Source: Prorocentrum cordatum
Lineage: Eukaryota > Sar > Dinophyceae > Prorocentrales > Prorocentraceae
Direction of reading: 5' to 3'
Assembly (NCBI GenBank): GCA_963575745.1
Contig: CAUYUJ010001337.1
Coordinates: forward strand, 274,650 to 338,649
DNA length: 64,000 nucleotides
Made by a program: the position numbers and the translations under genes. Below are positions 4,488 to 36,985 of the stretch, in pieces. The notes below the pieces were generated by a model. That model did no database searches. It was given only the letters and a program-made list of their open reading frames with translations, and was not told the DNA's origin. The stretch's first letter is position 1, and the number at the start of each line of letters is the position of its first letter.

Positions 4488-4694
4488 GGGGAGCCTGGCA
4501 TACCCTCCCAGCTCCGACTTTAGCGTCGATTAGCGTCTCGGAGTCGGTGAGATAGCGCCGATTTAGCGTCGTCGGTTAGCGTCGATTTAGCGTCGACTTA
4601 GCGTCGATTTGGCGGCGATTAGCGTCGACTAGCGTCGACGAGCGTCGATTCGCCAGAGCCGACAAGATGGTATGGGAGGCTCCCACGAGTTGCC
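4488..4694. repeat. R2 element with (AGCGTCGATTT)n core, copy 1
   Basis: An array of degenerate 'TAGCGTCGATT' units at about 4521-4650 is followed by 'GCCAGAGCCGACAAGATGG' and 'GGGAGGCTCCCACGAGTTGCC'. The left side has 'GGGAGCCTGGCATACC'. By comparison with the complete copy at 56890-57125, the ends are terminal inverted repeats. The right end carries the start codon and first codons of the downstream translocator gene. Confidence 0.8.
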
Positions 4695-5628
4695 CTCAAA
4701 GGGGGGGTGTCTTCGGGGTCGGTGGTCGGCCCGCGCGGCGGTGAAGGGCGCAGGAGGGGCGGGCGCTACGGGCGCGCTGCTGACGGTGGCGCTCTACGCC
4801 GCAAACGTAGGCTTCAACGTGCTGAACAAGCAGACGCTGACTGCGGTTCCAGATTTTCCAGTCTGGAACACCGTGCTGCATTTCGGGGTCGGCAGTTGCT
4901 TGTCGTTGGCCGCATGGGCTCTCAGATTGCAGCGACCGCCAGCCTCTTTGAGCGCAGGAGCTCTAGAATGTATATCCCCACTGGTGTTCTTGCACTGTGT
5001 CGCAATATTGTTTACGAATTTGGCCGTGGCTAAGGTGAACCTGTCTCTTGTGCATACCATCAAAGCGGCGGAGCCGTTCTATGCAGCGTGTCTGTCTTTT
5101 TTAGTGTTGGGGATCGTTCCCTCAGCCGGTGCATTAGGATGCTTGGCGCTGATCGTGTCTGGCGTGATGATGGCTTCTATTTCTGAGGTGTCATTCACGT
5201 ATGTGGGTTTCTTGGCCGCCATGGGATCGAATCTGGGCTTCTGCTTGAAAAATGTGTTGAGCAAGAAGCTTCAGGCAGATGCACGCGTGGACGAGCTGAA
5301 CCTAATATCACTGCTCACGCTTGGATCATTGTTCGTGGGTCTGCCTTTTGCGATTTGGCGTGAAGGTATGAACCCTCCTTTCGGTGACGCTGTCGTGCTG
5401 GTGCGTGGTGTATCCGCAGGGGTCCTGTTCCACCTGTACCAGATCGCGTCCGTCCTGATGCTATACCGTGCTTCTCCCGTGACGCACAGCGTGATTAACA
5501 TCGTCAAACGCCCAGTTCTAATAGTGGTTTCGATCGCATGGTTTGGCACTCCAGTCGGATGGAGCAATGGACTTGGGCTTGGATGTGCGTTGTTGGGTTG
5601 CTATGCTTATAGCTTTTCGAAGCGCTGA
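4672..5628 (+). CDS. Triose-phosphate translocator (TPT/NST) family membrane transporter
   Basis: A 318-residue intronless frame. It has about nine to ten hydrophobic segments spanning residues 34-315, with almost no soluble tail, as in the drug/metabolite-transporter superfamily. Family signatures are visible: 'NKQTL' at 52-56, 'HTIKAAEPF' at 128-136, 'SEVSFTYVGF' at 171-180, 'NVLSKK' at 194-199 and 'SPVTHSVINIVKR' at 268-280. K131, Y256, K279 and R280 fall where the family binds phosphate and sugar. Family members exchange phosphorylated sugars or nucleotide sugars across plastid or Golgi membranes; substrate and location here are not determined. No plastid-type bipartite presequence is visible; the hydrophobic core starts at residue 34. 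The start is the first ATG after an in-frame TAG at 4630, and residues 1-8 are translated from repeat R2, so the true N-terminus may lie elsewhere. This is the most ordinary-looking gene in the window. Confidence 0.88.
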   Translation: MGGSHELPSKGGCLRGRWSARAAVKGAGGAGATGALLTVALYAANVGFNVLNKQTLTAVPDFPVWNTVLHFGVGSCLSLAAWALRLQRPPASLSAGALECISPLVFLHCVAILFTNLAVAKVNLSLVHTIKAAEPFYAACLSFLVLGIVPSAGALGCLALIVSGVMMASISEVSFTYVGFLAAMGSNLGFCLKNVLSKKLQADARVDELNLISLLTLGSLFVGLPFAIWREGMNPPFGDAVVLVRGVSAGVLFHLYQIASVLMLYRASPVTHSVINIVKRPVLIVVSIAWFGTPVGWSNGLGLGCALLGCYAYSFSKR

Positions 5629-10560: not shown

Positions 10561-10976
10561 GCCTATCGAAGACGCCTACGGCGAATCACCGCCGCCCCCT
10601 GCCCCTTTGGAAGCGCCTTTTGTGGCTGACAGCTGTGGCAGAGCTTGGCCAGGCTATCGGGCCAGTTGTTCCCCGAGTCGGTTTGGAAAGATTTCGGGGA
10701 ACGCATGGGCGAGCAAGAAGAGGAGGAGGGGGAGGATGAGGAACCAAGAGGAGGAGGATGAGGAGGAGGAGGAGGAGGAGGAGGTGGAGGCCTCTTAGGC
10801 GCCTCTTGGGGCTCTCTTGGGGCCTCCTGGGAGCTTCCTGGGGGCATCTTGGAGGGTTTTGGGGGGCCTTTGGGGGCTTCTTGGGGGCCTCTTTGGCCGT
10901 CTTAGGGCGTTCCTGGTTTGTCTGACGCCGTCGGAAGCCGTCTTGGGGGCCTGTCTGTGTCGTCTTGGGGTCCTCT
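10561..10976. repeat. R14 satellite-like repeat, left half interrupted by the retroelement
   Basis: Begins 'CGAAGACGCCTACGGCGAATC' with a run 'ACCGCCGCCCCCTGC', continues through 'CCCCGAGTCGGTTTGGAAAG', a (GGA)n tract, and then 'CTTGGGGGCCTCTT'-type monomers. The same series occurs uninterrupted at 19563-19937 and in related form at 28317 and 29252. It ends at 10976, where the YR retroelement begins, and resumes at 18225. Confidence 0.85.
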
Positions 10977-11116
10977 TATATGTTCTTGAACGGTTTGAGC
11001 TTGGGCTTTTTGAATTCGGTGATGTCAGTACCTGCTAAACGATCCAAGGAAGTTTAAACATCGGGATGCTTTCTCTCACTTGTCCCCGCTCTCCCCTCCA
11101 TAGCCTGTCTTCGGCT
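10977..11116. repeat. Split direct repeat A1 of the retroelement
   Basis: 140 bp from 'TATATGTTCTTGAACGG' to 'TCTTCGGCT', repeated at 17969-18108 with only a few substitutions. It lies at the 5' end only, with no B repeat beside it. It ends in a pyrimidine-rich stretch plus 'CATAG', similar to 15489-15503. Confidence 0.95.
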
Positions 11117-11137
11117 TCAGGACGGGCGGCGCGCCCC

Positions 11138-11599
11138 ATGCTCGCCTCTGGCGTGCCCGCGGCGCTGCCGGCCTTGTGCGTGGCGCTGATCGCTGGTCTT
11201 GGCTGGCGGGCGAGTCCACCACAGCCTGGGCCCGAGCCGCCGAGCGAGGTTCCCTTGTGGCTCGACGGGGTCGCCGGCGCTTGCGTCGAGGCTTCGTCGG
11301 CGGCGCTGCGCGCCGAGGCCGCGGCTCGTGCGTTCTCGGAGCGCGCGGCCGCGCCACCGCCGCCTCCGCCGCCGCAGGGGGGCGACGGCTGCGTCTGCCC
11401 CGAGGTCGGCGACGGGCTGAGCGCCGAGGCGCTGGCGCTGCATCTGCTGGTGAGCCTCCTCTCGCCGCTGTGGATCGCGTTGGCGGATAAGTGCTTCAAC
11501 TGCTGCCCGCGCCGCCTGTGGCCTAGGCACAATGTCGCGCCGGCGCGGACGCCTGGCGGCCCTGCCCCCGTTGCCCGCGGGGGAGGGGTGGTGCGCTGA
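11138..11599 (+). CDS. Small hydrophobic protein, first ORF of the retroelement (hypothetical)
   Basis: An open frame that could start upstream at 11066, but that start lies inside repeat A1, so the ATG at 11138 is preferred. It gives 153 residues. Two hydrophobic stretches ('ALPALCVALIAGLGW' near the start and 'ALHLLVSLLSPLWIALA' in the second half) could be membrane segments, and the second is followed by a Cys/Arg patch 'DKCFNCCPRRLW'. It overlaps the gag-like ORF by 68 bp in another frame. I recognise no family. It may be a real element-encoded protein or a chance open frame in GC-rich leader DNA; the paired hydrophobic segments favour the former slightly. Confidence 0.4.
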   Translation: MLASGVPAALPALCVALIAGLGWRASPPQPGPEPPSEVPLWLDGVAGACVEASSAALRAEAAARAFSERAAAPPPPPPPQGGDGCVCPEVGDGLSAEALALHLLVSLLSPLWIALADKCFNCCPRRLWPRHNVAPARTPGGPAPVARGGGVVR

Positions 11600-13124
11600 T
11601 CTTCCCAGCGGCGCTCGCGCACGGGTGAGCTACGACGGCGACGTCATGGACCATGAGCGCGTCGTGGTTTGGCCCTCGCGGCGAGTCGAGGATGGCGAGC
11701 TGGTGGACCCGCACCTCTACTGGGTCCTCTCGCCAGATGGTGACCTGTGGGAGGAGCTGCTCTCGGGGGCCTCGCCCGCAGATGGCCCCTCGGGTGGTGA
11801 GCGCATCGCCAGCGGTGGGGCCCCGCCTGCTGACGGTCGGAAGCTCTACAGCTTCCGCGAGCAGCCGTCCCTCGCCAGGCTCGTGGAGTTGGCCGACGAG
11901 TGCCGACTAGCGATGGAGGCCCGCGGGCAGGTTGCTGCCGATGGGCCCGCCCATGTGGAGCTCGCCTCGGGTAGGCTGCTGGATGGCGGGGACGTCTTCC
12001 CGTGGGCCGCGCCGACGCGGCCCCCGCATCGCCTCCGCGGGAAGCAGGCGCCGCCGGTTGCCGACGGCGGAGCGGGCGGCGCTCTGGCTGACGCTGCCGC
12101 GGGCTCGCCCACGCCCCCTCTTGAAGGGCATGTCTGGGCGCTGGCCGAGCCCGTGGCCGACCTGGACATCGGCGCGATCGTTGACCCGTCGAGCGAGACG
12201 CTCATTGGCGCTGGAGTGGACGCTCTCTGGCTTCGGCGGGGCCGGGCGCTTCGTCTGGAGCTGATGCCGCGGTGCGACGTGGCGGGCTGGAGGTCGCGCC
12301 GCGTTGCCGAGCTGAGTCGCCTTCTGGAGGCGGCAGCTCCTGCGGCGGTGCCCGGCTCCTCCCCGCCTGACGGTGCCCTGGATGACGCCGCCGCCAGTGG
12401 CGCTGAGGGCGCTCCCGCCCCAGATGGTGCTCCGTCGGCTGTCGCTTTGGCTAGCGCCGCTAGCGACGACACTCGCGCTCTCTGGGTCGAGTGGGACGAC
12501 CAGGGCGAGCGATACAAGGAGTTCAGGAAGGCCGCGAACGAGTCGTTGAGCTATGACTGGGGCCACCAGCGTTTGGAGGGCGGCCTGACGTGCGTGCACA
12601 CCTGCAAGATGATGTACCGCACGGCAGGCACCCCTCGGGCGTGGCTCGAGAAGTTCTTGCGCGATAAGAACATCGTTCCCACCGACCGCGTCGCCCATGA
12701 GCTTCGGCCGCTGGTGGAGGCGCTCGAGGAGGCCGGGCCCTTCGACCAGGTTAACCTGGGGGGACTTGCCTGCCTGGAAGTGATCGTGCGCCGGCTCAAC
12801 GCGATCGTTGACGCCTACAAGCGCGCGGGCGCCCCCTCGTTCGCCAACGCCAAGTACTTGGCTCCACTGGGCGAGGCTGACGAGCTGATGGCGCCCTCGC
12901 TGAGGAGCCACGTCTCCCGCCGCGCTAAGGAGGACTGGGAGGTCGAGCAGTCTATGAAGAAGGCCGAGGCGGTGGATGCTCGTGTGACGTCGGGTTCTGC
13001 CGCAGCCCATCATGGCGCTGATGGTGCCACCACAGGGACCGGCGGTGGGGGCAAGGGGCGAGGTCGCGGCGGTCGTGGTCGCGGAGGTCGCACCCCAGGG
13101 CTCCCCCCGCCGGTCCAGTCATGA
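11532..13124 (+). CDS. Gag-like nucleic-acid-binding protein of the retroelement
   Basis: 530 residues, first long ORF of the element. Residues 1-310 are acidic, Ala/Gly/Pro-rich and poorly conserved in appearance. Residues 312-495 ('WVEWDDQGERYKEFRKAA' onward) look globular and helical and contain no gaps or low complexity. The tail from about 503 is a Gly/Arg-rich box ('GKGRGRGGRGRGGR'), typical of RNA-binding nucleocapsid-like tails. There is no zinc knuckle. Position upstream of reverse transcriptase, and a 4-bp ATGA overlap with it, support a gag role: packaging element RNA. The start at 11532 is the first ATG of the frame, though translation could begin downstream. The function is inferred from position and tail and not from a recognised domain. 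Confidence 0.75.
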   Translation: MSRRRGRLAALPPLPAGEGWCADLPSGARARVSYDGDVMDHERVVVWPSRRVEDGELVDPHLYWVLSPDGDLWEELLSGASPADGPSGGERIASGGAPPADGRKLYSFREQPSLARLVELADECRLAMEARGQVAADGPAHVELASGRLLDGGDVFPWAAPTRPPHRLRGKQAPPVADGGAGGALADAAAGSPTPPLEGHVWALAEPVADLDIGAIVDPSSETLIGAGVDALWLRRGRALRLELMPRCDVAGWRSRRVAELSRLLEAAAPAAVPGSSPPDGALDDAAASGAEGAPAPDGAPSAVALASAASDDTRALWVEWDDQGERYKEFRKAANESLSYDWGHQRLEGGLTCVHTCKMMYRTAGTPRAWLEKFLRDKNIVPTDRVAHELRPLVEALEEAGPFDQVNLGGLACLEVIVRRLNAIVDAYKRAGAPSFANAKYLAPLGEADELMAPSLRSHVSRRAKEDWEVEQSMKKAEAVDARVTSGSAAAHHGADGATTGTGGGGKGRGRGGRGRGGRTPGLPPPVQS

Positions 13125-15034
13125 CCGAGAAGGCACAGCCGGGGGAGTGGGCCCCCCCTGGCTGGCACCACAACCTGGCCCGCGCCTCGCCGCTGCCGCC
13201 GTCCGATTTTGAGGGAGACCTTTTTCCCGTGCCGATGATGATGGCGCCGGGCGACTCCGCTCGGGGACGCAGGTCTCAGCGTGGGACCCATGCTCGGCAG
13301 CATGAGGTGGAATTGGTGAATCGCGCCCTCCGCAGCTTGAACTGGCTGGCGGGCTTCGAGGGCGCGGCTGCTTCACCGAGTCCAGGCGTGACAACCCTGG
13401 ACAAGCATGCGGCCCTTCAGCAGCACCTGCTTCGTGAAGCTCATCGGCGACAGGCCGCAGCTCCGGAGGTGATGCCGAAGGCGGAGGCAGCCCTGAGGGA
13501 GCAGCTCCGGGGGCAGTCCGTATACGAGACGGACTCTGCCCCAAGGAACCTCGTCTCCTACCAGCCCGGCAAGGCCTCGCTGCCCAATATCGTGCTGGAC
13601 TGCCGCTTCATTGAGGACATCGCGAGCCCTGGGTGCCGCTCGTTCTTGGAGGAGAATCACAAGCGAATGAGGTTGGAGCCGGAGACTGTGGACTTCGACA
13701 GCATGCCGCGGTTGTACATGGACCCAGTGTTGAAGAGGAATTTCAAATCTTATCGTACCTTCTTGCGAGATCTTGCTGGACGTGGATTTCTGGGAGTAAC
13801 CGCCAGACCCGCCGAGTCGGCGGGCCTGTTCTTCGTGGCTAAATCAAACGGGGCTCAGCGTATGATAATCGATGCTAGGCGAAGCAACGGCCACTTCAGA
13901 ACGCCGCCAGGTGTGCAGCTTCTCAGCAGCGAGGGGTTCGGCCGGATCGAGATAGAGTTGCCGCTGGGTGTCTTGCCCTCATCAGTTGAGGGGCAGCGGC
14001 TTCTGGATGCCTTCACTGTCTACGTGGCCACCACCGACGTGAAGGACTGCTTCTACCGAATGCGCGTCCGCGAGGACCTCGGCCGCTACTTCTGCCTGCC
14101 CGCCGCCCCGAAGCACGTGCTCGATGGGACTCAGGTGGCCGGCGTCCCGGCGGATGCTCCGCCGGACGCCCCCGTGCGGCCCTACCTCGCCGTGCTTCCG
14201 ATGGGGTTCACGTGGTCGCTGCGCCTGGCCCAGGCCGCGAATGAGGACAGGGTGCGCCGTGGCCCCAGCCTGTGCAAGGCGATGCCAGCTGACAGACAAC
14301 AGCCCTTGATTCAGGATCAGGCCGAGGCTTTTGTGCTACGCGCCGCCTCGCGCGGGGTCGGAGGTGCTTACGTGCACGTGGACAACCTTGGCGCCGTTTC
14401 GGACGATGCCGACCTCAGTGACAGGATGGTCTCCGAGTGGAGCGACTTGTTCGAGCCGGTCGGCCTGGCGCTCCACAAGTCAGATTCCCACGGCGGCGCT
14501 GGCGAGGCTCTCGGCACTGAGCTTGACGGCGCTCGCCTTCGCTCGGGGATCACCTCGAGCCGGTTTTGGAAGCTCGAGCGGGGCTTGACTGGCTTTCTCG
14601 CTCGGGGGCGTTGCAGCGGCCAGGCGCTTGAAAAAGTGATCGGACATTGCACTTTCTGCGGTCTAGCTGCCCGTGAGTCCCTTTCTACCTTCCACACCGT
14701 CTATAAGTTCATGTCGGTTCAGTCTTTTGACGCGGGCTCAATGTGGCCCGAAGTGGTCGAGGAGCTCGTGGCTTTTAGAGGGGCCCTTTTGCTTCTGGGC
14801 CGCGACTGGTGGCTGCCGTGGAACCCCTGGAACCCCTGCGTTTTAGAAACCGACGCCAGCCTAGCGGGCTGGGCGATGGACCAAAGTTTGAGCCGTCTCA
14901 GGTCGCCGGCGTCGGTCGTGTCAGTGAGCGTTCCCGTTTCAAGCGTGTCGGTGCTCACTCCGCTCGGGAATCCGCACTCACCTCTGCCCGCCTCTTCCGC
15001 GACGAGTCAGGCGAGTGGAGAAGCCAGCTTTTAG
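13121..15034 (+). CDS. Reverse transcriptase of the YR retroelement (followed by start of RNase H)
   Basis: 637 codons, starting in an ATGA overlap with the gag-like stop, which suits termination-reinitiation. Reverse-transcriptase blocks are in order: 'GLFFVAKSNGAQRMIIDAR' at 235-253 (fingers), motif A 'TTDVKDCFY' with D306, motif B 'LPMGFTWS' at 359-366, and motif C 'YVHVDNLG' with D421-N422 instead of the usual Y-x-D-D. The connection ends in 'ETDASLAGW' at 576-584, the first RNase H strand, with D578. After about residue 586 the frame is wrong: the rest of RNase H is in frame 1. Translation downstream of there to 15034 is therefore not the original protein. It copies element RNA into DNA. 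The family assignment is firm; activity of this copy is doubtful. Confidence 0.92.
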   Translation: MTEKAQPGEWAPPGWHHNLARASPLPPSDFEGDLFPVPMMMAPGDSARGRRSQRGTHARQHEVELVNRALRSLNWLAGFEGAAASPSPGVTTLDKHAALQQHLLREAHRRQAAAPEVMPKAEAALREQLRGQSVYETDSAPRNLVSYQPGKASLPNIVLDCRFIEDIASPGCRSFLEENHKRMRLEPETVDFDSMPRLYMDPVLKRNFKSYRTFLRDLAGRGFLGVTARPAESAGLFFVAKSNGAQRMIIDARRSNGHFRTPPGVQLLSSEGFGRIEIELPLGVLPSSVEGQRLLDAFTVYVATTDVKDCFYRMRVREDLGRYFCLPAAPKHVLDGTQVAGVPADAPPDAPVRPYLAVLPMGFTWSLRLAQAANEDRVRRGPSLCKAMPADRQQPLIQDQAEAFVLRAASRGVGGAYVHVDNLGAVSDDADLSDRMVSEWSDLFEPVGLALHKSDSHGGAGEALGTELDGARLRSGITSSRFWKLERGLTGFLARGRCSGQALEKVIGHCTFCGLAARESLSTFHTVYKFMSVQSFDAGSMWPEVVEELVAFRGALLLLGRDWWLPWNPWNPCVLETDASLAGWAMDQSLSRLRSPASVVSVSVPVSSVSVLTPLGNPHSPLPASSATSQASGEASF

Positions 15035-15462
15035 GAGACGAGCCTCAGTTAGGCGACTGGGAGGTCGCTGCGGATTTTCCCAAAGTCCCCTGGCAGCTTC
15101 TCCGAGGCTCGGCCTGGAAAACCGTCCGGAAGGGAGTTTGGGGCCTTAGCGAGGGCATTTTGGTGCTGGAGGCCCGGGCCTTGGTGAAGGCCATCCGTAG
15201 GCTCGCCAGGACCAGGCACGGGCCCTGCATCAGACAGCTTTTCTTGTGCGACAACATGGCCGTCTCTCTTTCTTTCGCTCGCTCGAGGAGTCAGGACTTC
15301 AAGCTCTTAGTCCAGATTCGACGCTTCAACGCCGATGCCCTTGCCCTTGGCATCGCCCCGTACTTTAGATGGATTCCCTCGGAGTTTAACCAGAGCGATG
15401 CCGGGAGCCGCGATCACTCAGAAGTTTCGTCCAAGTTGCTAACCGATGTCCTGGATCAGCAG
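14880..15462 (+). pseudogene. RNase H domain of the retroelement, shifted into a second frame
   Basis: Continues the reverse-transcriptase polypeptide in frame 1 after a shift between about 14880 and 14925. It contains 'GRVSERSRFKRVGAHSAR' (start of the shifted part), then 'ILVLEARALVKAI' with the second acidic residue at 15169-15171, 'LFLCDNMAV' with the third Asp at 15250-15252, and 'WIPSEFNQSDAGSR' with the fourth Asp at 15397-15399. With D578 of the upstream frame this completes the D-E-D-D set. The domain degrades RNA in RNA:DNA hybrids. No standard slippery heptamer is visible, so a single-base indel is the simplest cause. The open frame continues to 17406, but the part after about 15462 is antisense to no known protein and is ignored until the methyltransferase-like region. 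Confidence 0.8.
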
Positions 15463-15488
15463 GTTAGGATCTCTGCTCCTTCTTCTCT

Positions 15489-15518
15489 CTCTCCCCTCCG
15501 TAGTCGTTTCGGCTCAAA
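15489..15518 (+). promoter_or_regulatory. Pyrimidine tract-TAG with spliced-leader-like sequence upstream of recombinase
   Basis: 'CTCTCCCCTCCGTAG' (15489-15503) is nearly the same as the end of repeat A1 ('CTCTCCCCTCCATAG', 11089-11103); both are followed by 'TTCGGCT'. The 21 bases at 15498-15518 match the last 21 bases of the conserved dinoflagellate spliced leader at 17 positions by eye. It lies 51-66 bp before the recombinase ATG preferred here. It may be a trans-splice acceptor for a subgenomic recombinase mRNA, or a relic leader. Both readings are inference. Confidence 0.35.
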
Positions 15519-15568
15519 CTGTAGTCAGGTTTTCCTCGCTTCCGTGCCCGAGGAGTCTGTTCCGACGG

Positions 15569-17038
15569 ATGCGTGCTCGGGCGCTGCGGCCGCCGCGGGC
15601 TCCGGCGCAGGCGAGTTCTCCAGCGCCGTCGCGAGTTCTGCCGCGACCTGGCGTCGGCCCGCCGCCCTGCCGGAGAGATCCACCGACAGCGAAGGCGAAG
15701 TCGAGAGTGCTGGCGGGGCCCCAGGTGACGACGGAGACGCGTGGTCCCAGAGCCCGCCCCGACGCGAGGACAAGGGGCCATGGCGCCCGCTCGGTCAGGG
15801 CACGCTTGGAGAGCCGCCTTCGCCAGCCGCCGTTGCCGCCCCCTGTGGCGCTCGAGGACCTCGCCCCCGCGGCCTGCGCTGGCGACGACGAGGCGGGCGC
15901 CGGGGAGGAAGGCGAGTCGAGTGGGTCCGACAGCGTGGTGAACCACGCGACTGCGGCCGCGAGGAGATCTCGACGCCTCCAGGACTCCCGGCGCCGACGC
16001 CGCGCGGCCCTCTACACGGACATGATCATGCAGACCATGGCCGGTGGGCCCACCTTGCTGGAGCGACTGGCGGTGACTCGCCGGACGAGGGAGCGCTATG
16101 CCAAGTATCTCGATCGTTTCTACTCGCATGCCGGCCTGACCGACGACAAGCTCGCGAGGAGCTCGGACGAGACCGTGGATTGCTGGGTGTGCGACTACTT
16201 CACCGCGATGTACCTGTCCGGGGAGCAGAGCAGCCTGGGGGGCCAGACTGGAGCCGCCCTCATCGACCGACACCCAGCTTTCGGCCGACGGGGCGGGAGA
16301 GCCCTGCCGCGGACGTGGCGAGCGCTCAAGGCGTGGGGGCGGCTGACGCCCTCGCGCACCCGCCGAGCGCTGCCGCTCGCCGTGTGGTCAGCAGTGATGT
16401 GGCGGCTGGTGGACAAGGGCCTCCCGTTCATGGCCTTGTTCTTGGCCGCGGGCCTCTCTGCTTATTCAAGGCCCTCTTCCCTGCTGGCAGCCCGCAAGTG
16501 CGACCTGGTCCCGCCTTCGCGCGCGACAGTGGACAGCTGGAGCCCTCTGACGCACCCAGAGGAGGAGGGCAGACCAAGCAAAACGAATCGCTACGACGAG
16601 GGCTGCCTCCTGGACTCGAGTTACCTCCGGGGGCTGGGTCCACTGTTCGCCGAGCTCAGAGGGCACGGAGACAGGACCAAGCTGTGGCCTTTCACGTACC
16701 TGGAGCTCTCGCAGGCGGTGCAGCTGGCAGCGGCCGAGGTCGGGGCTGGCAAGCTGACACTGCATCAGCTCCGCCACTCAGGCGCGAGCATCGACGCCAG
16801 CAGGCGCACGCGCAGCCTAGAGGAGATTCGAAGGCGCGGCTGCTGGGCTCAGGCGAAAAGCATGCACAGGTACGAGCACAGCGGCCGTCTGAGCGCCGAG
16901 TACGAGCGCTTTCCCGCGGACCAGAGACGCCTGTACGAGGCTTGCGAGGTCCATCTGATGAGGATCATGCTCGGGCACGCTCACCCAGTCCAGTTCAGCC
17001 GTCGAATGCTGACCTGGCAGTCGCGCGTGCCAAGCTAA
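15569..17038 (+). CDS. Tyrosine recombinase (phage-integrase fold) of the retroelement
   Basis: The frame is open from 15446, but its first 41 codons read through the pyrimidine tract, so the ATG at 15569 is preferred (489 residues). Numbering from 15446: residues 42-190 are basic and low complexity; 'RERYAKYLDRF' at 215-225 starts the core-binding region. Catalytic residues are Arg342 in 'YSRPSSLL', His440 and Arg443 in 'LHQLRHSGAS', Trp467 in 'RRRGCW' (the His/Trp position) and nucleophile Tyr476 in 'HRYEHSGRL'. All five are present, so the domain is intact. It would integrate a circular double-stranded DNA intermediate by site-specific recombination, which explains the split repeats and lack of target duplication. 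It follows RNase H directly and overlaps the next domain in another frame. Confidence 0.93.
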   Translation: MRARALRPPRAPAQASSPAPSRVLPRPGVGPPPCRRDPPTAKAKSRVLAGPQVTTETRGPRARPDARTRGHGARSVRARLESRLRQPPLPPPVALEDLAPAACAGDDEAGAGEEGESSGSDSVVNHATAAARRSRRLQDSRRRRRAALYTDMIMQTMAGGPTLLERLAVTRRTRERYAKYLDRFYSHAGLTDDKLARSSDETVDCWVCDYFTAMYLSGEQSSLGGQTGAALIDRHPAFGRRGGRALPRTWRALKAWGRLTPSRTRRALPLAVWSAVMWRLVDKGLPFMALFLAAGLSAYSRPSSLLAARKCDLVPPSRATVDSWSPLTHPEEEGRPSKTNRYDEGCLLDSSYLRGLGPLFAELRGHGDRTKLWPFTYLELSQAVQLAAAEVGAGKLTLHQLRHSGASIDASRRTRSLEEIRRRGCWAQAKSMHRYEHSGRLSAEYERFPADQRRLYEACEVHLMRIMLGHAHPVQFSRRMLTWQSRVPS

Positions 17039-17040
17039 GG

Positions 17041-17843
17041 CGGAGCTTCCGTGGCTGTCGCGAGAGACGCCTCGCTGCGCAGCGTTTCGGCTTCAGAGGC
17101 CAGTATGTAGCAGATTTCTTCGCGGGAAGCCGTTGCATCTCGCGAGCAGGTGATAAGGTAGGCTTTAGAACACGCAGCTGGGATGTAGCCCGCGATCCAG
17201 TTTGGCAGAATCTTGTCGATCCAAAGGTCCCCAGGGCGATCCGACGCGACGCCCGTCGGGGCCTTATCCTTGCAGCAGCTTTGGCCCCTCGTGCCAAACT
17301 TTCTCCATCGCGCGAGATCGGACGGCAAAGATCCGATCCCAAGATATGCCCTGGGGTTTGCCCAGCCGGTTGCTCAGTGCACCAGGCCGAGAGAAACTCA
17401 AGGTAGGCAATCAGACTGCCCACGCCGCCATAGGCCTGTTCGCTCTTTTCCATCAGCTCAAGATCCCTGCTGTTCTTGAGCACCCATTCACCTCTCGTCT
17501 GTGGCACACCGCAGAGATCCAAGCTTTAGCCAACTTGCCGCATGTCAGCTTAGTCGAACTAGATCAGTGCCAATTCAGAGCCCAATGTAAGAAGCCAGCT
17601 CGCCTCATGTTCTGTCACGTAGCAGTCGACGATCTTAAGAATCTTCGCGGAAAATGCAGTGATCAGAGAGGACAGTGCTCGCGGTCAGGCTTGCCTCACT
17701 TTCAACTCGAAGGAAGCGCCCGCGCCCGTCCAGCGGCTGCCTACCCGCCTGAGCTCGCACACTGTATAGTTCGGGCACTCACAGCCGCTTGCGTTGCCAC
17801 GTTCGGATACAATTCGACATCCCTCCCTTCCCAACCCGAGTGA
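17041..17843 (+). pseudogene. C5-cytosine methyltransferase-like domain of the retroelement, frame-shifted
   Basis: Frame 1 (to about 17289) gives 'QYVADFFAGSRCISRA' then 'WDVARDP' and 'RRGLILAAALAP', matching the SAM-binding motif I region of C5-methyltransferases. Frame 3 then continues 'PSCQTFSIARDR' (PC-type motif IV; Cys at 17292-17294), 'PAVLEHPFTSRLW' (in place of the ENP/ENV motif VI), 'QCKKPARLMF', and a C-terminal 'HFQLEG...AAYPPELAHCI' block. The two halves abut without loss, which points to a one-base indel at about 17285. The family transfers methyl groups from SAM to C5 of cytosine in DNA. Motif VI has His for Asn, and no ATG precedes motif I in frame, so expression would need fusion to the recombinase or a lost start. 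It lies 22 bp before repeat B1, inside the element. Confidence 0.72.
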
Positions 17844-17865
17844 ACTCCCGTATTCGGGAAACTTG

Positions 17866-17969
17866 GGGAGGAGTGAGAGCGTGCATCGACTTTGACCTCT
17901 GGCCTGGACGTCTCGAGGCTTTCGTCAGATCCGTGCCCCTGCAATGTGAAAAAAAAAAAGAGTTGCTCT
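17866..17969. repeat. Split direct repeat B1
   Basis: From 'GGGAGGAGTGAGAGCG' to 'GAGTTGCTCT', repeated at 18125-18224. The copies differ by a couple of substitutions and the length of an A run (11 versus 7). Its end is joined directly to the start of A2. Confidence 0.95.
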
Positions 17970-18108
17970 ATATGTTCTTGAACGGTTTGAGCTGGGGCTT
18001 TTTGAATTCGGTGATGTCAGTACCTGCTAAACGATCCAAGGGAGTTTAAACATCGGGATGCTTTCTCACACTTTTCCCCGCTCTCCCCTCCATAGCCTGT
18101 CTTCGGCT
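17969..18108. repeat. Split direct repeat A2
   Basis: The second copy of A (see 10977-11116), 140 bp with the same length. It lies between B1 and B2, separated from B2 by 16 bp. Confidence 0.95.
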
Positions 18109-18124
18109 CCCACCCTCCCACCCT

Positions 18125-18224
18125 GGGAGGAGTGAGAGCGTGCATCGACTTTGACCTCTGGCTTGGACGTCTCGAGGCTTTCGTCAGATCCGTGTCCCTG
18201 CAATGTGAAAAAAAGAGTTGCTCT
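18125..18224. repeat. Split direct repeat B2, right end of the element
   Basis: The second copy of B. It ends 'GAGTTGCTCT', after which the interrupted R14 sequence resumes with 'GGGGCATATCAGGGG', matching the unfilled site at 19938 onward. Confidence 0.95.
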
Positions 18225-19550
18225 GGGGCATATCAGGGGTTCTTAGAGGCCATCTTGGGCGTCTTGGGGGCCTCTTGGGCCGTTTTGGGGCCTTCTTGGG
18301 GCCGTCTTGGGAACCTTTTGGGTCGTCATGGGGCCATCTTGGGGGCCTCTTGGGCGATCTTGGGGGCATCTTGCGCCGCCTTGAGCCGTCGGAATGCCGA
18401 CAAGGAGCAATTTCCAACATCTTTCAAAAACCTTAGGAACATCAGCGATTTTGGCCTCTTCGTGCCCTCCTGGAAGACCTCCTGGACGCCTTTCGGGCAG
18501 TCTTGGAGGCCTCTTGGGGGCCTCTTGGGCCGTCTTGGGCCATCTTGAGGCCATCTTCGGCCGTCTTGGGTGCATCTTGGGCCGTCTTGGATGCATCTTG
18601 GGGCCATATGAGCCGTTTTGGAGGCCATGGTGGCCGTCTTGGAGGCCTCTTGGGCCCTCTTGGGGCCGTCTTGGTGGCCTCTTGGGCCGTCATGGGGCCA
18701 TCTTGGAGGCCTCGTGGGCGATCTTTGGGGCCTCTTGGGCCGTCGTGAGGCGTCGGAAAAATGTAAAATAGCAAATGCAGAAATCACCCCCGAAAAAAAC
18801 CTAAGGAACCTCAATGATGTCGGCCTCTCCGGGCTCTCCTGGAGGACCTCTTGGAGGCGTCTTGGAGGCCTCTTGGAGGCCTCTTGGGCCGTCGTAGGCC
18901 ATTCGGAGGCCATCTCAGGCCGTCTTGGGTGCATCTTGGGCCGTGTTGGAGGCATCTTGGGGCCATCTTGGCCGTCTTGAAGGCATCTTGGGAGTCTTAG
19001 AGGCTTCTTGGGCCGTCTTGGGGCCTCTTGGGGGAATCTTGGGGGCCTCTTGGGCCGTCATGGGGCCATCTTGGAGACCTCTTGGGCGGTCTTGGGGGCC
19101 TCTTGAGCCGTCTTGAGGTCTTCGGAAGGCCGAAAAGAAGCAAATGCCGCAACCTTTCTCAAATACCTGAGCAAAACTAATGATTTTGGCCTCTTCGTGC
19201 CCTCCTGGAAGACCTCTTGGAGGCGTCTTGGGGGGCTCTTGGGCACCTCTTGGGCCATCTTGAGGCTATCTTGGGCCGTCTTGTATGCATCTTGGGTCGT
19301 CTTGGAGGCATCTTGGGGCCATTTGAGCCGTCTTGGAGGCCATGGTGGCCGTCTTTGAGGCGTCTTGGAGGCCATCTTGGGCCGTCTTGGAGCCGTCTGG
19401 AGCAGGAAACACCTTTGCAACCACCTCTGGGCAATCTTTCCGGGTGGCCGGCGGGACGGGACGAAGCCCCAGGGGGAGTTCTCTTAGAACAAGAACCAAA
19501 ACCAAAACCGACAGGGTCTAGCACGCCAGGCACCGGTGCGTTGAATCTAC
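18225..19550. repeat. R14 'GCCGTCTTGG' satellite, right part of the interrupted unit
   Basis: Built from degenerate 15-30-bp phrases such as 'GGCCGTCTTGGAGGCCTCTT' and 'GGGGCCATCTTGG'. About every 360 bp (near 18390, 18750 and 19120) a distinct A-rich spacer appears: 'CCGTCGGAA', 'GAAAAGAAGCAAATGC', 'CAAAAACCT', 'GATTTTGGCCTCTTCG' and 'CCTGGA(A/G)GACCTC'. It ends with 'AACCAAAACCAAAACC'. It stays open in several frames on both strands, giving Trp/Gly/Leu-rich or Arg/Pro/Lys-rich translations that I regard as non-coding. Confidence 0.85.
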
Positions 19551-20215
19551 AGGGGGCGGCGGATCGAAGACGCATACGGCGAATCACCGCCGCCCCCTGC
19601 TCCGTTGAAAGCGCCTTTGTGGCCGACAGCTGGGGCAGAGCTTGGCCAAGCTATCGGCAGTTATTCCCCGAGTCGGTTTGGAAAGATTTCGGGAACGCAT
19701 GGGGGAGCAAGAGAGGAGGCGGGGGAGGATAAGGAAAAACGAAAAGGAGGAGGCCTCTTGGGCGCCTCTTGGGCACCTCTTGGGGCCTCCTGGGAGCTTC
19801 CTGAGGGCCTCTTGGAACGTATTTTGGGCCTTTGGAGGCTTCTCGGGGGCCTGTTGGCCGTCTTTGGGCGTTCCTGGCTTTCCTGACGCCGTCGGAAGCC
19901 GTCTTGGGGGCCTGTCTGAGTCGTCTCGGGGTCCTCTTGGGGCATAGCAGGGGTTCTTAGAGGCCATCTTGGGCGTCTTGGAGGCCTCTTGGGCCGTTTT
20001 GGGGCCTTCTTGGGGCCGTGTTGGGAGCCTTTTGGGTCGTCATGGGGCCATCTTGGAGGCCTCTTGGGCCCTCTTGGACCGTCTTGGGGCCCTCTTGGGC
20101 CGTCTTGGGGCCGTCTTGGGGAGGGGACCTCTTGGACCGTTGTGGGGCGATCTTGGGGGGCTCATTGGGCCGTCTTGGAGCGTCGGAAAGCTGAAAAGGC
20201 GAGAAGGCTAAAACG
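19551..20215. repeat. R14 unit, uninterrupted, containing the unfilled retroelement target
   Basis: Begins 'CAGGGGGCGGCGGATCGAAG' and follows the same order as 10561-10976, then continues past the insertion point at 19937/19938 into sequence matching 18225 onward for at least 130 bp. The opening contains an inverted repeat, 'GGGGGCGGCGG' against 'CCGCCGCCCCC'. Confidence 0.85.
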
Positions 20216-22589: not shown

Positions 22590-24906
22590 TTTTATCTGTC
22601 CCCACAGAAAAAAATCCATGGATGCCGATCGATGCCATTTGTATGTACCTCTGTGCCAGGGAGAATGCCGATGGGGATGTTCCCGTCTTCCGATCAGATA
22701 ATGAATGTTTACATTGCGTTTTCGCCATTGGGCTTTGGAGTTCAACATCGCTCCCGTGGTATAGAACCTATCAGCGGTATGCCGCCGCCGCGCGCGCGTT
22801 GGCGATTGGCATTTGGGCATCCAGTGTCGTAGATCCACATGGCGATGTCCCCGTCTTCCGGTCAGAAAATGCATTTTTACAACTGGTTTTCGCCATTGGG
22901 TTTTGGAGTTCAACCTCGCTCCCGTTGTATAAAACCTATCAGCGGCATGCCGCCGCCGCGCGCGCGCGCGCGCTGGCGATTGGAAGTTGTGCATTCAGTG
23001 TCGCATTTCCACATGAGGAGGTTCCCGTCTTCCGATCAGAGAATGCATTTTTACATTGGGCTTCGCCCTTGGATTTTGGAGTTCAACCTCGCTCCCGTTG
23101 TGTACAAATCCATCAGCGGCATGCCGCGCGCTGGCGATTGGCATTTGGGCATCCAGTGTCGTAGATCCACATGGCGATGCGTCTTCCGATCAGACAGTGC
23201 ATGTTTACATGTTTTTGCCACTGGGTTTTGGAGATCAAATTTCGTTCCGTTGCATCAAATCTATCAGCGGCATGCCGCCCCCGCCGCGCGCTGGCGATTT
23301 GCATGTTTGCGTTCACTGTTGCATATCCACATTGGGATGTTCCCGTCTTCCGATCAGAGAACGATTTTTTACATTGGGCTTTCGCCATTTAGTTCGGACG
23401 TGCAACTTCGTTCCCGTTGTATCGAATCTATCAGCGGCATGCCGCCGCCGCGCGCGCATGTTGGCGATTGGCATTTTTGCATTCAGTGTCGTATATCCAC
23501 ATGGGGATGTTCCTGTCTTCCGATCAGAGAATGCATTTTTAGATTGTGTTTTCGCCATTGGGTTTTGGAGATCGAATTTCGTCCCGTTGTATAGCATCTA
23601 TCAGCGGCATGCCGCCGCCGCGCGCGCGCGGGCGTGCGCTGGCGATTGGCATGTGTGCATTCAGTGTCGCATATCCACATGGGGATGTTCCCGTCTTCCG
23701 ATCAGAATGAATGTTTACATTGCGTTTTCGCCATTGGGCTTTGGAGTTCAACATCGCTCCCGTGGTATAGAACCTATCAGCGGTATGCCGCCGCGCGCGT
23801 TGGCGATTGGAATTTGGGCATCCGGTGTCGTAGATCCACATGGCGATGTTCCCGTCTTCCGATCAGACAGTGCATGTTTTACATGTTTTCCTGTCTTCCG
23901 ATCAGAGAATGCATTCTTACATTGGTTTTTGCCATTGGACATTGGAGTTCAACATCGCTCCCGTTGTATAACACGTATCAGCGGCGTGCCGCCGCCGCGC
24001 GCGCGTTGGCGATTGGAATGTGCCAGTGTCGCATTTCCACATGAGGATGTTCCCGTCTTCCGATCAGATAATGCATTTTTGCATTGGGTTTTCGCCATTG
24101 GATGTTGGAGTTCAACCACGCTCCCGTTGTATAAAAATCTACCAGCGGCATGCCGCGCGCGCGTTGGCGATTGGCATTTGGGCATCCAGCGCCGTAGATC
24201 CACATGGCGATGTTCCCGTCTTCCGATCAGAAAATGCATTTTTACATTTTTTTTGTCAATGGGTTGTGGAGATCACATTTCGTTCCGTTGTATCACATCT
24301 ATCAGCGGCATGCCGCCGCCGCGCGCGCTGGCGCTGGGCATTTTTGCGTTCACTGTTGCATATCTACATTGGGATGTTCCCGTCTTCCGATCAGGGAATG
24401 ATTTTTTACATTGGGCTTTCGTCATTTAGTTTTGAAGTGTAACTTCGCTCCCGTTGCATCAAATCTATCAGCGGCATGCCGCCGCCGCGCGCGCTTTCTG
24501 GCGATTGGCATTTTTGCATTCAGTGTCGTATATCCACATGGGGATGTTCCCGTCCCCCGATCAGAGAATGCATTGTTACATTGGGTTTTCGCCATTGGGT
24601 TTTGGAGATCGAATTTCGTCCCGTTGTATAACACCTATCAGCGGCATGCCGCCGCCGCGCGCGCGCGAAATGTCGTTCCGTTGTAGAAAACCTATCAGTG
24701 GCATGCCGCCGCAGCGCGCGCGCTGGCGCTTGGCATTTTTGCATTGAGTGTCGTATATCCACATTGGGATGTTCCCGTTTTCCGATCAGAGAGTACATTT
24801 TTACACATGGGTTTTCGCCATTGGTACTGGAGTGCAACATCGCCCCCGTTGTATCAAATCTACCAGTGGCGTGCTGCATTTTCGTATTCAGTGCCGCTTC
24901 GCAACC
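22590..24906. repeat. 165-bp satellite, about 13 monomers, six-monomer higher-order unit
   Basis: Each monomer carries 'TTCGCCATTGGG', 'CTATCAGCGGCATGCCG', a (GC)n run, 'GGCGATTGGCATTT', 'ATATCCACAT' and 'GTTCCCGTCTTCCGATCAG'. The last phrase starts at about 22684, 22852, 23026, 23180, 23344, 23514, 23692, 23853, 24054, 24217, 24380, 24550 and 24776. Monomers six apart (offset 1.00-1.04 kb) are more alike than neighbours, which shows a higher-order duplication. Long open frames through the array come from repeat periodicity and are not called as genes. Confidence 0.9.
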
Positions 24907-28316: not shown

Positions 28317-29248
28317 TCGAAGACGCCTACGGCGAATCACCGCCGCCCCCTGCCTTTTTGGAAGCGCCTATGTGGCCGAACGTTGAGGCCAGACCTGCCA
28401 AGCTATCGGACCACGTGTTCCCCGAATCGGTTTGGAAAGCCTTCGGGGAACACGTGGGCATCTTGAAGGTCATCTTGGCCGTCTTGGAGGCCTCTTGGGC
28501 AAGCTTTGGGCGATCTTTGGGGCTTTTTGGGCCGTCTCGGGCCAGCTTCGAGCCAACTTCGGCCATCTTGGTGGGTTCCTGGCACGTCTGAAGCCGTCGG
28601 AAGCCGTTTGGGGGGCCTCTATGGGCCGACTTGGGGCCCGCTTGGAATGCTCCAGGGCCGTCTTGGAGGCCATCTTGGGCGTCTGGGAGGCCATCTTGGG
28701 CGTGTTGGAGGCCTCTTGGGCCCTCTTGGGGCCCTCTAGGGGCCATCTTGGAGGCCACTTGGGCCATCATGGGGCTCTCTTGGGGGCCTCTTGGGCGATC
28801 TTGGGGGCTTCTTGGGCCGTCTTGAGCCGTCGGAGAGCCGAAAAGGCGCAAATGCCAAAATCCTTCAAAAACCAAGGGAAAATCAATGATTTTGGCCTCT
28901 TCGGACTCTCCTGGAGGACCTCTTGGAGGCCTCTTGGGCCGTCTGGGAGGCCTCTGGGGGGCCTCTTGGGCCGTCTTGGGCCGTCTTGGACTCTCTTGGG
29001 CCGTTTTGGAGGCCGTCTTGGACCATCTCGGGCGGACTTGGAGGCCATCTTGGGCCATCTTCGCGATTTTTTGAGGATGTCCCGAGCGAAACGGCCGTTT
29101 TTGGGCATTGAAGGATGGGTTTTCCGAAATTTGCGGGTGGCCGGCGGGACGGGCCGAAGCCCACTGGGGAGTTCTTTTAGAAAAAGAACCAACACCAAAA
29201 CCTGAATCATCCAGCACGCCGTGCACCCCTGCAAGCAGGGGGCGGCGG
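28317..29248. repeat. R14 tandem unit 1 (about 930 bp)
   Basis: Begins 'CGAAGACGCCTACGGCGAATC', then 'GAATCGGTTTGGAAAGCCTT', R14 monomers, the A-rich spacer at 28828-28890, 'TCGCGATTTTTTGAGGATG', 'CGAAACGGCCGTTTTTG', and an end 'AAGAACCAACACCAAAACC', 'CAGCACGCCGTGCACC' and 'GCAGGGGGCGGCGGATC'. The next unit has the same landmarks in the same order. Confidence 0.88.
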
Positions 29249-30177
29249 ATCGAAGACGCCTACGGCGAATCACCGCCGCCCCCTGCCTTTGTGGAAGCGC
29301 CTATGTGGCCGAACGTTGAGGCCAGACCTGCCAAGCCATCGGACCATGTGTTCCCCGAATCGGTTTGGAAAGCCTTCGGGGAACACGTGGGCGTCTTGAT
29401 GGTCATCGTCGCCGTCTTGGAGGCCTCTTGGGCGATCTTTCGGCGATCTTTGGGGGCTCTTGGGCCGTCTCGGGCCGTCGGAAGGCCGAAAGAAGGGAAA
29501 TGTCCAAATCCATCAAAAACCTTGGGAAAATCAGTGATTTTGGCATCTTTTGGCCTTCCTGGAGGCCCTCTTGGGGGCCTCTTGGGCCCTTTTGGGCCAG
29601 CTTCGAGCCAACTTCGGCCATCTTGGTGGGTTCCTGGCACGTCTGACGCCGTCGGGAGCCGTTTTGGGGGCCTTTCTGGGCCAACGGGGGACCCTCTTGG
29701 GGCGCTCCAGGGCCGTCTTGGAGGCCATCTTGGGCGTCTTGGAGGCCATCTTGGGCGTGTTGGAGGCCTCTTGGGCCGTCTTGGGGCCCTCTAGGGGCCA
29801 TCTTGGAGGCCACTTGGGCCGTCGATGGGGCCCTCCTTGGGATTTTGGCCCTCTTCGGACTCTCCTGGAGGACCTCTTGGAGGCCTCTTGGGCCGTCTGG
29901 GAGGCCTCTGGGGGGCCTCTTGGGCCGTCTTGGGCCGTCTTGGACTCTCTTGGGCCGTTTTGGAGGCCGTCTTGGACCATCTCGGGCGGACTTGGAGGCC
30001 ATCTTGGGCCATCTTCGCGATTTTTTGAGGATGTCCCGAGCGAAACGGCCGTTTTTGCGCACGGTGGCGGGTTCTGCCGGAGCCCACTGGGGAGTTCTTT
30101 TGGAAAAAGAACCAAAACCAAAACCTAACAGCTCGTCCAGCACGCCGTGCACCCCTGCAAGCAGGGGGCGGCGGATC
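29249..30177. repeat. R14 tandem unit 2 (about 930 bp)
   Basis: Repeats all landmarks of unit 1. It differs in the middle, where an extra A-rich spacer block lies at about 29480-29545 in place of the one at 28828 in unit 1, so the units differ by internal rearrangement as well as point changes. A third unit is begun at 30166 ('GGGGGCGGCGGATC') and then lost. Confidence 0.88.
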
Positions 30178-30254
30178 CAGTGGCCGTCGGCCTATCCCGC
30201 CACCGTGCGTGGGTGGTGGGTCAGAGGCCTCATGGATGCTGGTTGGGATCTCGT

Positions 30255-30445
30255 GGTTGGCTGGGACTTCTGGGGGCCTCTTGGGCGCCTCTTGGGGTTT
30301 CTTGGGGGCCTCTTGGGCCTCTAGGGGCCACTAGAGGGCCTCTTGGGGGTCTCTTGGGAGCCTCTTGGGGCTTCTTGGGGGCCTCTTCTGCGCCCCTTGG
30401 GGCCTCTTGGAGGCCTCCTCGGAGCCTCTTGGTGCGGGATGGGTG
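30255..30445. repeat. R14 satellite block
   Basis: 'CTTGGGGGCCTCTTGGG' monomers of a simpler type, without spacer. It is followed by a G/C homopolymer-rich stretch at 30520-30545. Confidence 0.75.
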
Positions 30446-35424: not shown

Positions 35425-36290
35425 TCCAGTACGGTGTTCCGTGGCCCCGTAGGGAGCTCCACCTAAGGCCCCAGGAGAGGGGTACCGCATGCATCCGCCA
35501 CACCCAGTACGGCGCTTCGTGGCCCTATGGGGGGCTCCACCTAAGGCCCCAGTGGACGGGTACTACATGCGTCCGCCACACCCAGTACGGCGTTTCGTGG
35601 CCCCACAGGGAGCCTCACCTAAGGCCCCAGTGGGGGGTACAACATGCGTCCGCCACACCCAGTACGGAGCTTCGTGGCCCCATAGGGAGCTCCACCTAAG
35701 GACCCAGGGGGGGGGTACCACATGCATCCGCCACACCCAGTACGGCGCTTCGTGGCCCCAGAGGGAGCCTCATCGAAGACCCCTGGGGGGGGGTACCACA
35801 TGCGTCCGCCACAAGCAGTATGGCGTTTCGTGGCCCCATAGGGAGCTCCACCTAAGACCCAGGGGGGGGACCACATGCGTCCGCCACAACCAGTACGGCC
35901 TTCCGTGGCCCCATAGGGAGCTCCCCCTAATGCCCCAGTGGGGGGTACCACATGCGTCCGCCACACCCAGTACGGCGCGTCGTGGCTCCATTGGGAGCCT
36001 CAACCTAGGGCCCCGGGGCGGGCACCACATGCGTTCGCCACACCCAGTACGGCGCTTCGTGGCCTCCAAAGGATCTCCACTTAAGGCCCCAGTGGGGGGG
36101 GTACCACATGCGTCCGCCACACCCAGTACAGCGCTTCGTGGTCCCCAGGGGGCTCTACGGCAGGCGCCAGTGGGGGTGGCCACATGCGTCCGCCACACCC
36201 AGTAAAGCGTTTCGTGGCCAATGGGGCCGTCCGCATGTGTCCCGCACACCCAATTTGGCATTTACACCCACCCAGTACAGCGCTTCGTGG
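35425..36290. repeat. Satellite Q, block 2 (77-78-bp monomers)
   Basis: Core 'TTCGTGGCCCCATAGGGAGC', 'CACCTAAGGCCCCAG', then a G run and 'ATGCGTCCGCCACACCCAGT'. 'GTGG' of the core falls at 35441, 35519, 35597, 35674, 35752, 35830, 35905, 35982, 36059, 36139, 36214 and 36288. Because 78 is a multiple of three, one frame stays open for over 230 codons; that is not taken as a gene. Confidence 0.92.
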
Positions 36291-36985
36291 CCCCATAGGG
36301 AGCTCCACCGAAGCGAAGCCCCCAGTGGGACCGCCCGCATGCGCCCCGCACACGTAAGTTGACATGTTCACTCACCTAGTACAGCGCTTCGTGGCCCCAA
36401 TCGGGAGCTCCACCGAAGCCCCCCGTGGGACCGCCCACATGCGTCCCACACCCAATTTGCCAGTTTCGCTCACCAAGTACAACGCTTCATGGCCCCATAG
36501 GGAGCTCCACCGAAGCCCCCAGTGGGACCGTCCGCATGCGTCCCGTACGCCCAATTCGGCATTTTCACTTTCCCAGTATAGCGTTTAGAGGCCGCAGTGG
36601 GAGCTCCACCGAAGCCCCCAGTGGGACCGGCCACATGCGCCCCGGAAGCCCAATTTGGTATTTTCACCCACCCTATACAGCGCCTCGTTGCCCCATAGGG
36701 AGCTCCACCGAAGCTTCCAGTGGGACCGTCCGTATGCGTGTCGGAAGCCCACCTTGGAATTTTCACCAACCCAGTGCAGCGCTTCGTGGCCCCATAGGGA
36801 GCTCCACCAAAACCTCCAGTGGGACAGTCCGCATGCGTCCAACACACACGCAACTTTGCATTTTCGCCCACCTTGTATAGCGCTTCGTGGCCCCATGGGG
36901 AGCTCCACCGACGGCCCCAGTGCTACCGCCCGCGTGCGTTCCCCCCCACCCAGTGCAGCGCTTCGTGGCCCCATAAGGAGCTTCA
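36291..36985. repeat. Satellite Q, block 3 (about 100-bp monomers)
   Basis: The same core as block 2, but each monomer is lengthened by a 'CAATTTGGCATTTTCACCC'-type insert. Core positions are 36391, 36490, 36589, 36689, 36786 and 36888. The last interval (to 36965) drops back to 77 bp where the insert is absent. Confidence 0.92.

Follow-up and report, generated by a model that had tools for sequence, protein, structure and literature searches.

Several tyrosine recombinase (YR) retroelements resemble the one studied here. In the scheme set out in parts of PMC4157794, Ngaro elements are defined by the absence of a methyltransferase (MT) and PAT elements have both an MT and split direct repeats. 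For DIRS elements, passages of PMC3783388 describe the MT as a DNA N-6-adenine (Dam) type enzyme, and YR open reading frames (ORFs) that overlap other ORFs are already known from the same passages. In dinoflagellates, DIRS elements of Symbiodinium have captured a DNA methyltransferase (DNMT) of the Dnmt3 class, giving SymbioDIRS-Dnmt3 (de Mendoza et al. 2018, PMC5890265). According to sections of that paper, these enzymes methylate CG de novo in yeast, and its authors propose that they methylate cDNA. Sections of a 2025 DNMT survey mention that Dnmt3 has been captured by retrotransposons of the Copia and DIRS kinds and that LINEs have orphan DNMTs (PMC12344493). Parts of a study of the nuclear proteome of Prorocentrum cordatum report DNMTs enriched in the nuclear fraction, with no link to the present element (PMC10449503). 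Here we re-examined a retroelement at 10977..18224 of a 64,000-nucleotide stretch of P. cordatum DNA (the window), together with its copies in the same genome. We think it likely that this is a DIRS-group family with a PAT-like plan, that its Pol runs from reverse transcriptase (RT) and RNase H through a passage under the YR gene to a phage-related C5-cytosine-MT-like domain, and that this MT acts in cis. The window element would then be one damaged copy of a family that was mobile until recently. This reading draws directly on the repeats, the empty site, the copies, the open Pol frame, the selection on the MT, the C5 fold of a homologue and the retained Cys and Glu.

The MT DNA was used as query against the 4.13-Gb assembly (21,875 contigs). 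The 66 candidates yielded 40 scored matches, one of which is the window itself, with 31 at 85-100% and nine at 70-73% identity. For closer study we retrieved 20 near copies out of the 30 besides the window, and three of the nine distant ones; 16 of the 39 lie outside this sample. In all 20 near copies the MT is followed by the repeats B1-A2-B2, and in 17 of them A1 and gag are also present upstream within 8.5 kb (L023, L029 and L035 have no A1 within that distance). Of the three distant copies (70-71%), two retain the full set of four repeats and the gene order gag-RT-RNase H-YR-MT, with broken frames; in the third only the MT and B1/B2 are recognisable. Of the 21 copies (the 20 near copies plus the window), 15 have the MT as one tblastn stretch of 276 codons free of stops, the window copy being among the six in which it is interrupted. 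In a P. cordatum gene model, P0010, the YR leads on to part of an MT (54% over 37 aa, E 2e-8).

The sequences indicate that the MT is the C-terminal part of a Pol frame that runs open under the whole YR gene. In four of the 21 copies a single open frame of 1465-1768 codons extends from the RT through RNase H, across the entire YR ORF, which is read in a different frame, and through the MT. For the 10 copies whose YR ORF has 400 codons or more, stops in the Pol frame were compared with 1000 shuffles each, in which synonymous codons were exchanged while the protein and its codon usage were kept. There are no stops under the YR in six copies, one in three and eight in one (L035), against an expected 8.6-18.6, and the observed counts were reached by at most 0.001 of the shuffles. 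The window has 0 stops versus 11.5 expected. In the remaining alternative frame there are 17-22 stops, as many as expected or more. Read in the Pol frame, the YR-overlapping stretch has a ratio of nonsynonymous to synonymous polymorphism (pN/pS) of 1.12 between groups of copies. Thus, it is the openness of this stretch that is kept, not its sequence.

Purifying selection appears to keep the MT about as strongly as the RT. Between the two larger groups of copies, pN/pS (bootstrap 95% intervals, over codons only) is 0.22 (0.16-0.30) for the MT over 276 codons, 0.25 (0.20-0.31) for the RT, 0.17 (0.12-0.25) for RNase H, 0.25 (0.20-0.31) for gag and 0.39 (0.33-0.47) for the YR. Towards the three distant copies, the median ratio of nonsynonymous to synonymous substitution rates (dN/dS) is 0.13 for the MT, whose dS is near saturation, 0.24 for the RT and 0.33 for the YR. 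The picture is tempered by the values within groups. Among the copies grouped with the window, every gene has a higher pN/pS than between groups (gag 0.46, RT 0.61, RNase H 0.39, YR 0.65, MT 0.34), and in the next group the MT (0.37) is no lower than gag (0.35), RT (0.31) or YR (0.33). The groups follow a ranking of the copies by their identity to the window and not a tree, and L023, assigned to the window's group, falls beside the other group in the MT tree. Because the copies share ancestry, pair counts are not independent.

One sub-lineage seems to offer a natural test of dispensability. In the MT tree, copies L032-L037 group as a single clade (support 0.947). Each of the six has a deletion of 171-174 bp at the YR 3' end that takes out the tyrosine. 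The missing length is a multiple of three, and the Pol frame is left intact. In the two distant copies with a YR the match reaches near the YR end, thus the deletion in L032-L037 is derived. Within this clade pN/pS is neutral-looking for gag (0.98, 0.71-1.41) and YR (1.02, 0.83-1.27), while the RT (0.28, 0.18-0.43), RNase H (0.29, 0.17-0.51) and MT (0.28, 0.16-0.46) are constrained; the YR-overlapping passage in the Pol frame is at 0.70 (0.56-0.87). The simplest reading, from six related copies, which are few, is that Gag and YR would be supplied in trans by other copies and that RT-RNase H-MT would be cis-acting. The MT is retained with the RT where Gag and the recombinase are no longer kept, and this favors action in cis on nucleic acid of the element itself over a general effect on the host methylome. 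The pattern bears on the role of captured DNMTs in retroelements, which PMC5890265 calls unclear in the passage concerned.

We suggest that the MT is a minimal C5-cytosine-MT-like domain related to small phage methylases, with predicted activity. In the window the MT region (17041-17843) is present, but at the PxC motif it passes from one frame into another. Its C-terminal piece matches four metagenome proteins (E 1.4e-60 to 3.7e-42). The cysteine of PSC (PxC), the F-A-G of motif I and the acidic residue of motif II are each found in 24 of 24 copies, and the glutamate of EHP in 22 of 24. The predicted structure of a metagenome homologue has the C5-MT fold, with structural Z scores of 11.6 to M.HhaI and 10.7 to DNMT3A, and the Lactococcus phage P087 methylase is among its best viral fold matches. 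A comparison of the MT profile with a phage MT profile (hhalign) gave E 1.8e-6 and a probability of 89.8 (controls 2.9 and 0.2); one control was the Gordonia phage Yakult MT (E 5), from the 12 weak rows, best E 0.02, that a tblastn search of phages with P0011 returned. The profile phrog_757, 'DNA methyltransferase', matches P0003 (E 1.8e-6) and P0004 (E 5.5e-5), and the best meaningful PADLOC match is P0014 to MTase_II (E 9.4e-4).

Other searches for relatives of the domain were negative. In phages, tblastn with P0003 and P0014 found nothing. Scans of viral contigs with P0003, A2, the window RT and A5, and of genome contigs with A5, gave no relative, and a degenerate pattern built from a phage motif gave one match, due to chance. 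NCBIfam gave nothing above cut-off, and PDB sequence searches no credible match. PF00145 stayed below cut-off for the fragments P0017 (0.14) and P0014 (0.28) and is not among the Pfam results for the window ORFs, P0003, P0004 and two full Pol frames. PF05869 (Dam-like N6-adenine) is absent among those for the element ORFs and homologues. Since the MT escapes the standard DNA_methylase profile, surveys relying on that profile may have missed such elements. The earlier note had proposed a C5-cytosine-MT-like domain, to be checked with DNA_methylase and N6-MTase profiles, a structure prediction and a search for further copies. No Pfam profile reached its cut-off; the predicted fold of the homologue is that of C5 MTs, and other copies carry the MT and the same A/B repeats. 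The C5-cytosine-MT-like domain of the note is upheld; its description as a separate extra domain gives way to that of a C-terminal part of Pol.

The stop of the gag-like ORF1 overlaps the pol start codon (ATGA). In pol, the RT-like motifs TDVKDCF, PMGFTWS and YVHVDN occur in order by eye and are followed by the RNase H-like motifs TDAS, LEARAL, LFLCDN and NQSDAGSR; the RNase H part of the window copy has one frame break near 14.9 kb. No profile matches the RT, and its putative identity is drawn from motif order and selection. RT motif C, which is usually DD, reads VDN (14365-14385) in the window copy and in P0005, and one of two further copies printed differs again. The YR ORF carries YSRPS, HQLRHSG and RYEHS, with the R, HxLRH and RY residues all in place. 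Its matches to PHROG integrase profiles are weak (window 0.021; a near copy 0.052; homologue P0007 to phrog_216, E 0.0011). Three of its six protein matches are from P. cordatum (P0005 66%, P0008 53%, P0010 59%). A NUDIX domain in P0010 (E 4.5e-4, near the Pfam cut-off) falls outside the element part, and PADLOC matches of YR homologues to GajA and Cas10 were taken as chance. The assignment of RT, RNase H and a complete YR in the earlier note is thus upheld for the YR residues and for the order of the RT and RNase H motifs; for RT and RNase H no profile match accompanies it.

Alignments within the window give the repeat order A1-genes-B1-A2-B2. A1 and A2 are 97% identical over 140 bp and B1 and B2 98% over 90 bp (about 100 bp including an A-run), and A2 starts directly where B1 stops. 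As read from the sequence, the element ends at 10978 and 18224. These alignments and the other copies bear out the split direct repeats of the earlier note, and its boundaries were correct to within one base. The left flank (10565-10977) is 88-91% and the right flank (18225 onward) 95% identical to an empty site at 19563-20077. When artificially joined, the flanks align with it across the junction, save for the bases where the cut differed from the given ends. At this one site the host sequence is split as ...GGGGTCCTCTT / GGGGCATA... with no duplication at the element ends, which fits a tyrosine recombinase rather than a DDE integrase. The element lies inside one array of an 11/21/32-nt TCTTGGGGCC-type repeat, and such arrays are dispersed at 10770-10977, 18225-19400, 19745-20180 and 28400-30430. 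The stretch to its right is 95% alike to 19938-20077 and 85% to 28687-28988. Elsewhere in the window there are tandem arrays at 22671-24665 (170-nt unit, 11.8 copies, 68% matches) and at 35426-36952 (78-nt and 99-nt units), and 4633-5625 (+) is an uninterrupted 331-codon frame that resembles, by eye, an intronless sugar-phosphate/nucleotide-sugar transporter.

Table 1. Parts of the element and the related empty site, in window coordinates.
Feature	Position	Strand	Remarks
A1, left terminal repeat	10978..11116	+	97% to A2; found in 17/20 near copies fetched
gag-like ORF1 (530 aa)	11532..13124	+	gag identity inferred from position
Pol, RT-like part	13121..14838	+	motif order TDVKDCF / PMGFTWS / YVHVDN; pN/pS 0.25
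Pol, RNase H-like part	14839..15445	+	TDAS / LEARAL / LFLCDN / NQSDAGSR; pN/pS 0.17
YR ORF (530 aa)	15446..17038	+	wholly within open Pol frame
C5-cytosine-MT-like domain, C-terminal part of Pol frame	17041..17843	+	frame change at PxC motif in window copy
B1, internal repeat, abutting A2	17866..17969	+	98% to B2 over 90 bp
A2, internal repeat	17970..18108	+	alignment to A1
B2, right terminal repeat	18125..18224	+	alignment to B1; right end read from sequence
Empty-site paralogue (insertion site without element)	19563..20077	+	flank alignment

We suggest the following course of events. Its RNA would be reverse transcribed to cDNA, which is probably circularised at the B-A junction, and the YR would insert this cDNA without duplicating the target. 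The MT, tethered to the RT in the same polyprotein, would methylate the element's own new DNA, or an RNA/DNA intermediate, in cis before or during integration, and the methylation might serve as protection or disguise. Several observations weigh against this reading. MT motifs VI and VIII are non-canonical (EHP and KKPT; the canonical forms are ENV and QxRxR), and the target-recognition part is very short. The model of the metagenome homologue has modest confidence (pLDDT 67), and its Foldseek list mixes unrelated folds from rank 16. Pfam gave no match above cut-off for RT, RNase H, YR or MT, none for the gag-like ORF1 and none in any element ORF or homologue, and the AlphaFold model of the RT (two sequences) is uninformative (pLDDT 36). 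Translation of Pol under the YR as one protein is presumed from the open frame, and the copies studied are few and related. The element has a CpG observed/expected ratio of 1.00, and in nine copies the frequencies of singleton transitions (CpG 0.039, GpC 0.029, other C/G 0.043) give no deamination footprint of lasting CpG methylation. The target of the MT may be another context, a transient mark or RNA.

The last of these leads to an alternative that we regard as unlikely, in which the MT, like DNMT2-type enzymes with a C5 fold, methylates RNA (the transcript of the element or some host RNA) and not DNA. The C5 fold leaves the substrate unfixed, EhMeth, presumably DNMT2-like, is among the structural matches, and both the missing CpG footprint and the short target-recognition part would fit; yet the families nearest in sequence carry the annotation of phage DNA methyltransferases, and DIRS elements elsewhere carry DNA MTs, according to parts of PMC5890265 and PMC3783388. 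That the MT is catalytically dead and has become a tail of Pol that binds nucleic acid or plays a structural part is very unlikely. The non-canonical motifs would allow it, activity being judged here from sequence and model, but the near-invariant Cys, Glu, F-A-G and acidic residue and a pN/pS of 0.22 over 276 codons argue against it. A highly diverged host-derived Dnmt3, as a branch of the SymbioDIRS-Dnmt3 capture, also seems improbable to us, though the host group, the repeat plan and a DNMT in Pol are shared (parts of PMC5890265) and the Z score to DNMT3A is within 1 of that to M.HhaI. PF00145, with which PMC5890265 counted DNMTs in the passages concerned, is below cut-off for the MT, and the MT profile links to phage MTs that share PPC, ExP..W and KxT, as judged in a comparison made without Dnmt3 sequences.

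The open Pol frame could also have arisen incidentally from the codon context of a GC-rich gene, the MT being its own protein from an internal start. The listed sequences of P0003, P0004 (286 aa) and P0017 (112 aa) have a Met shortly before motif I, and the shuffles preserve codon usage and not the context of neighbouring codons. We doubt this explanation, as 9 of 10 copies have 0 or 1 stops where shuffles give many, stops in the remaining alternative frame are no fewer than expected, the length of the YR deletion is divisible by three in each of the six sub-lineage copies, and the Pol frame of the window has, by eye, no Met between the YR end and motif I. Finally, the split of the window MT over two frames would suit a chance insertion or misreading in one copy. 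This idea is already refuted by the 40 genome matches, the same arrangement in 20 of 20 fetched copies, the selection on the MT and the gene model P0010, in which a YR precedes an MT piece. We thus favor the cis-acting MT at the end of a DIRS-group Pol. A bolder version of it is possible, and we put it forward tentatively: a minimal phage-type C5 MT would have been acquired apart from the Dnmt3 capture and become an indispensable cis-acting part of Pol, the second frame of the YR would be stop-free for ~1.6 kb merely as a passage to it, and the sub-lineage without its own Gag and YR would indicate that each copy needs methylation for itself.

The earlier note had called the element Ngaro-type. 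We rejected this label on the MT criterion, since Ngaro elements lack an MT by definition in the passages of PMC4157794 and here an MT is present and selected in copies; its view that the element is a YR retroelement, has split direct repeats and carries a C5-MT-like domain holds. Passages of PMC4157794 and PMC3783388 show that Ngaro elements share the A-pol-B-A-B order and the internal repeats downstream of the YR. An MT, split direct repeats and internal repeats downstream of the YR make the element PAT-like in that scheme. RT, RNase H, MT, YR and split direct repeats are common to it and to PAT elements (Pat1, Toc and Kangaroo, in the part of PMC4157794 concerned), as are the internal repeats downstream of the YR and a gag in which, by eye, no zinc finger is seen. 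By domain and repeat arrangement the sequence thus places the element as PAT-like, but its MT is not Dam-like: the MT of DIRS elements is of the Dam type in the passages of PMC3783388, and a C5-cytosine-type fold is predicted here.

Among the titles and abstract openings of the matches listed, which cover few subscription papers, no phage-type C5 MT in a YR element is described. Small phage C5-like MTs (phrog_757 / phrog_2882, for example P087 gp15) have the same motif order, PPC..S, E-x-P..W and K-x-T. They are, however, stand-alone genes with ENP, whereas the MT of the element is a part of Pol with EHP, and the C-terminal part of the phage pieces compared lacks the C..C..H stretch of the element MT. 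SymbioDIRS-Dnmt3, as far as described in parts of PMC5890265, is alike in being a dinoflagellate DIRS-type YR retroelement with A-coding-B-A-B repeats and a C5-type MT that shares the Pol ORF with the RT and is under purifying selection. Its MT was sought with PF00145, which does not detect the minimal, phage-like MT described here. By description, not residue by residue, the latter is further set apart in being C-terminal and reached via the overlapping YR gene. Thus, a DNMT-bearing dinoflagellate DIRS element was already known, and what appears to be new here is a phage-like minimal MT reached through the YR gene.

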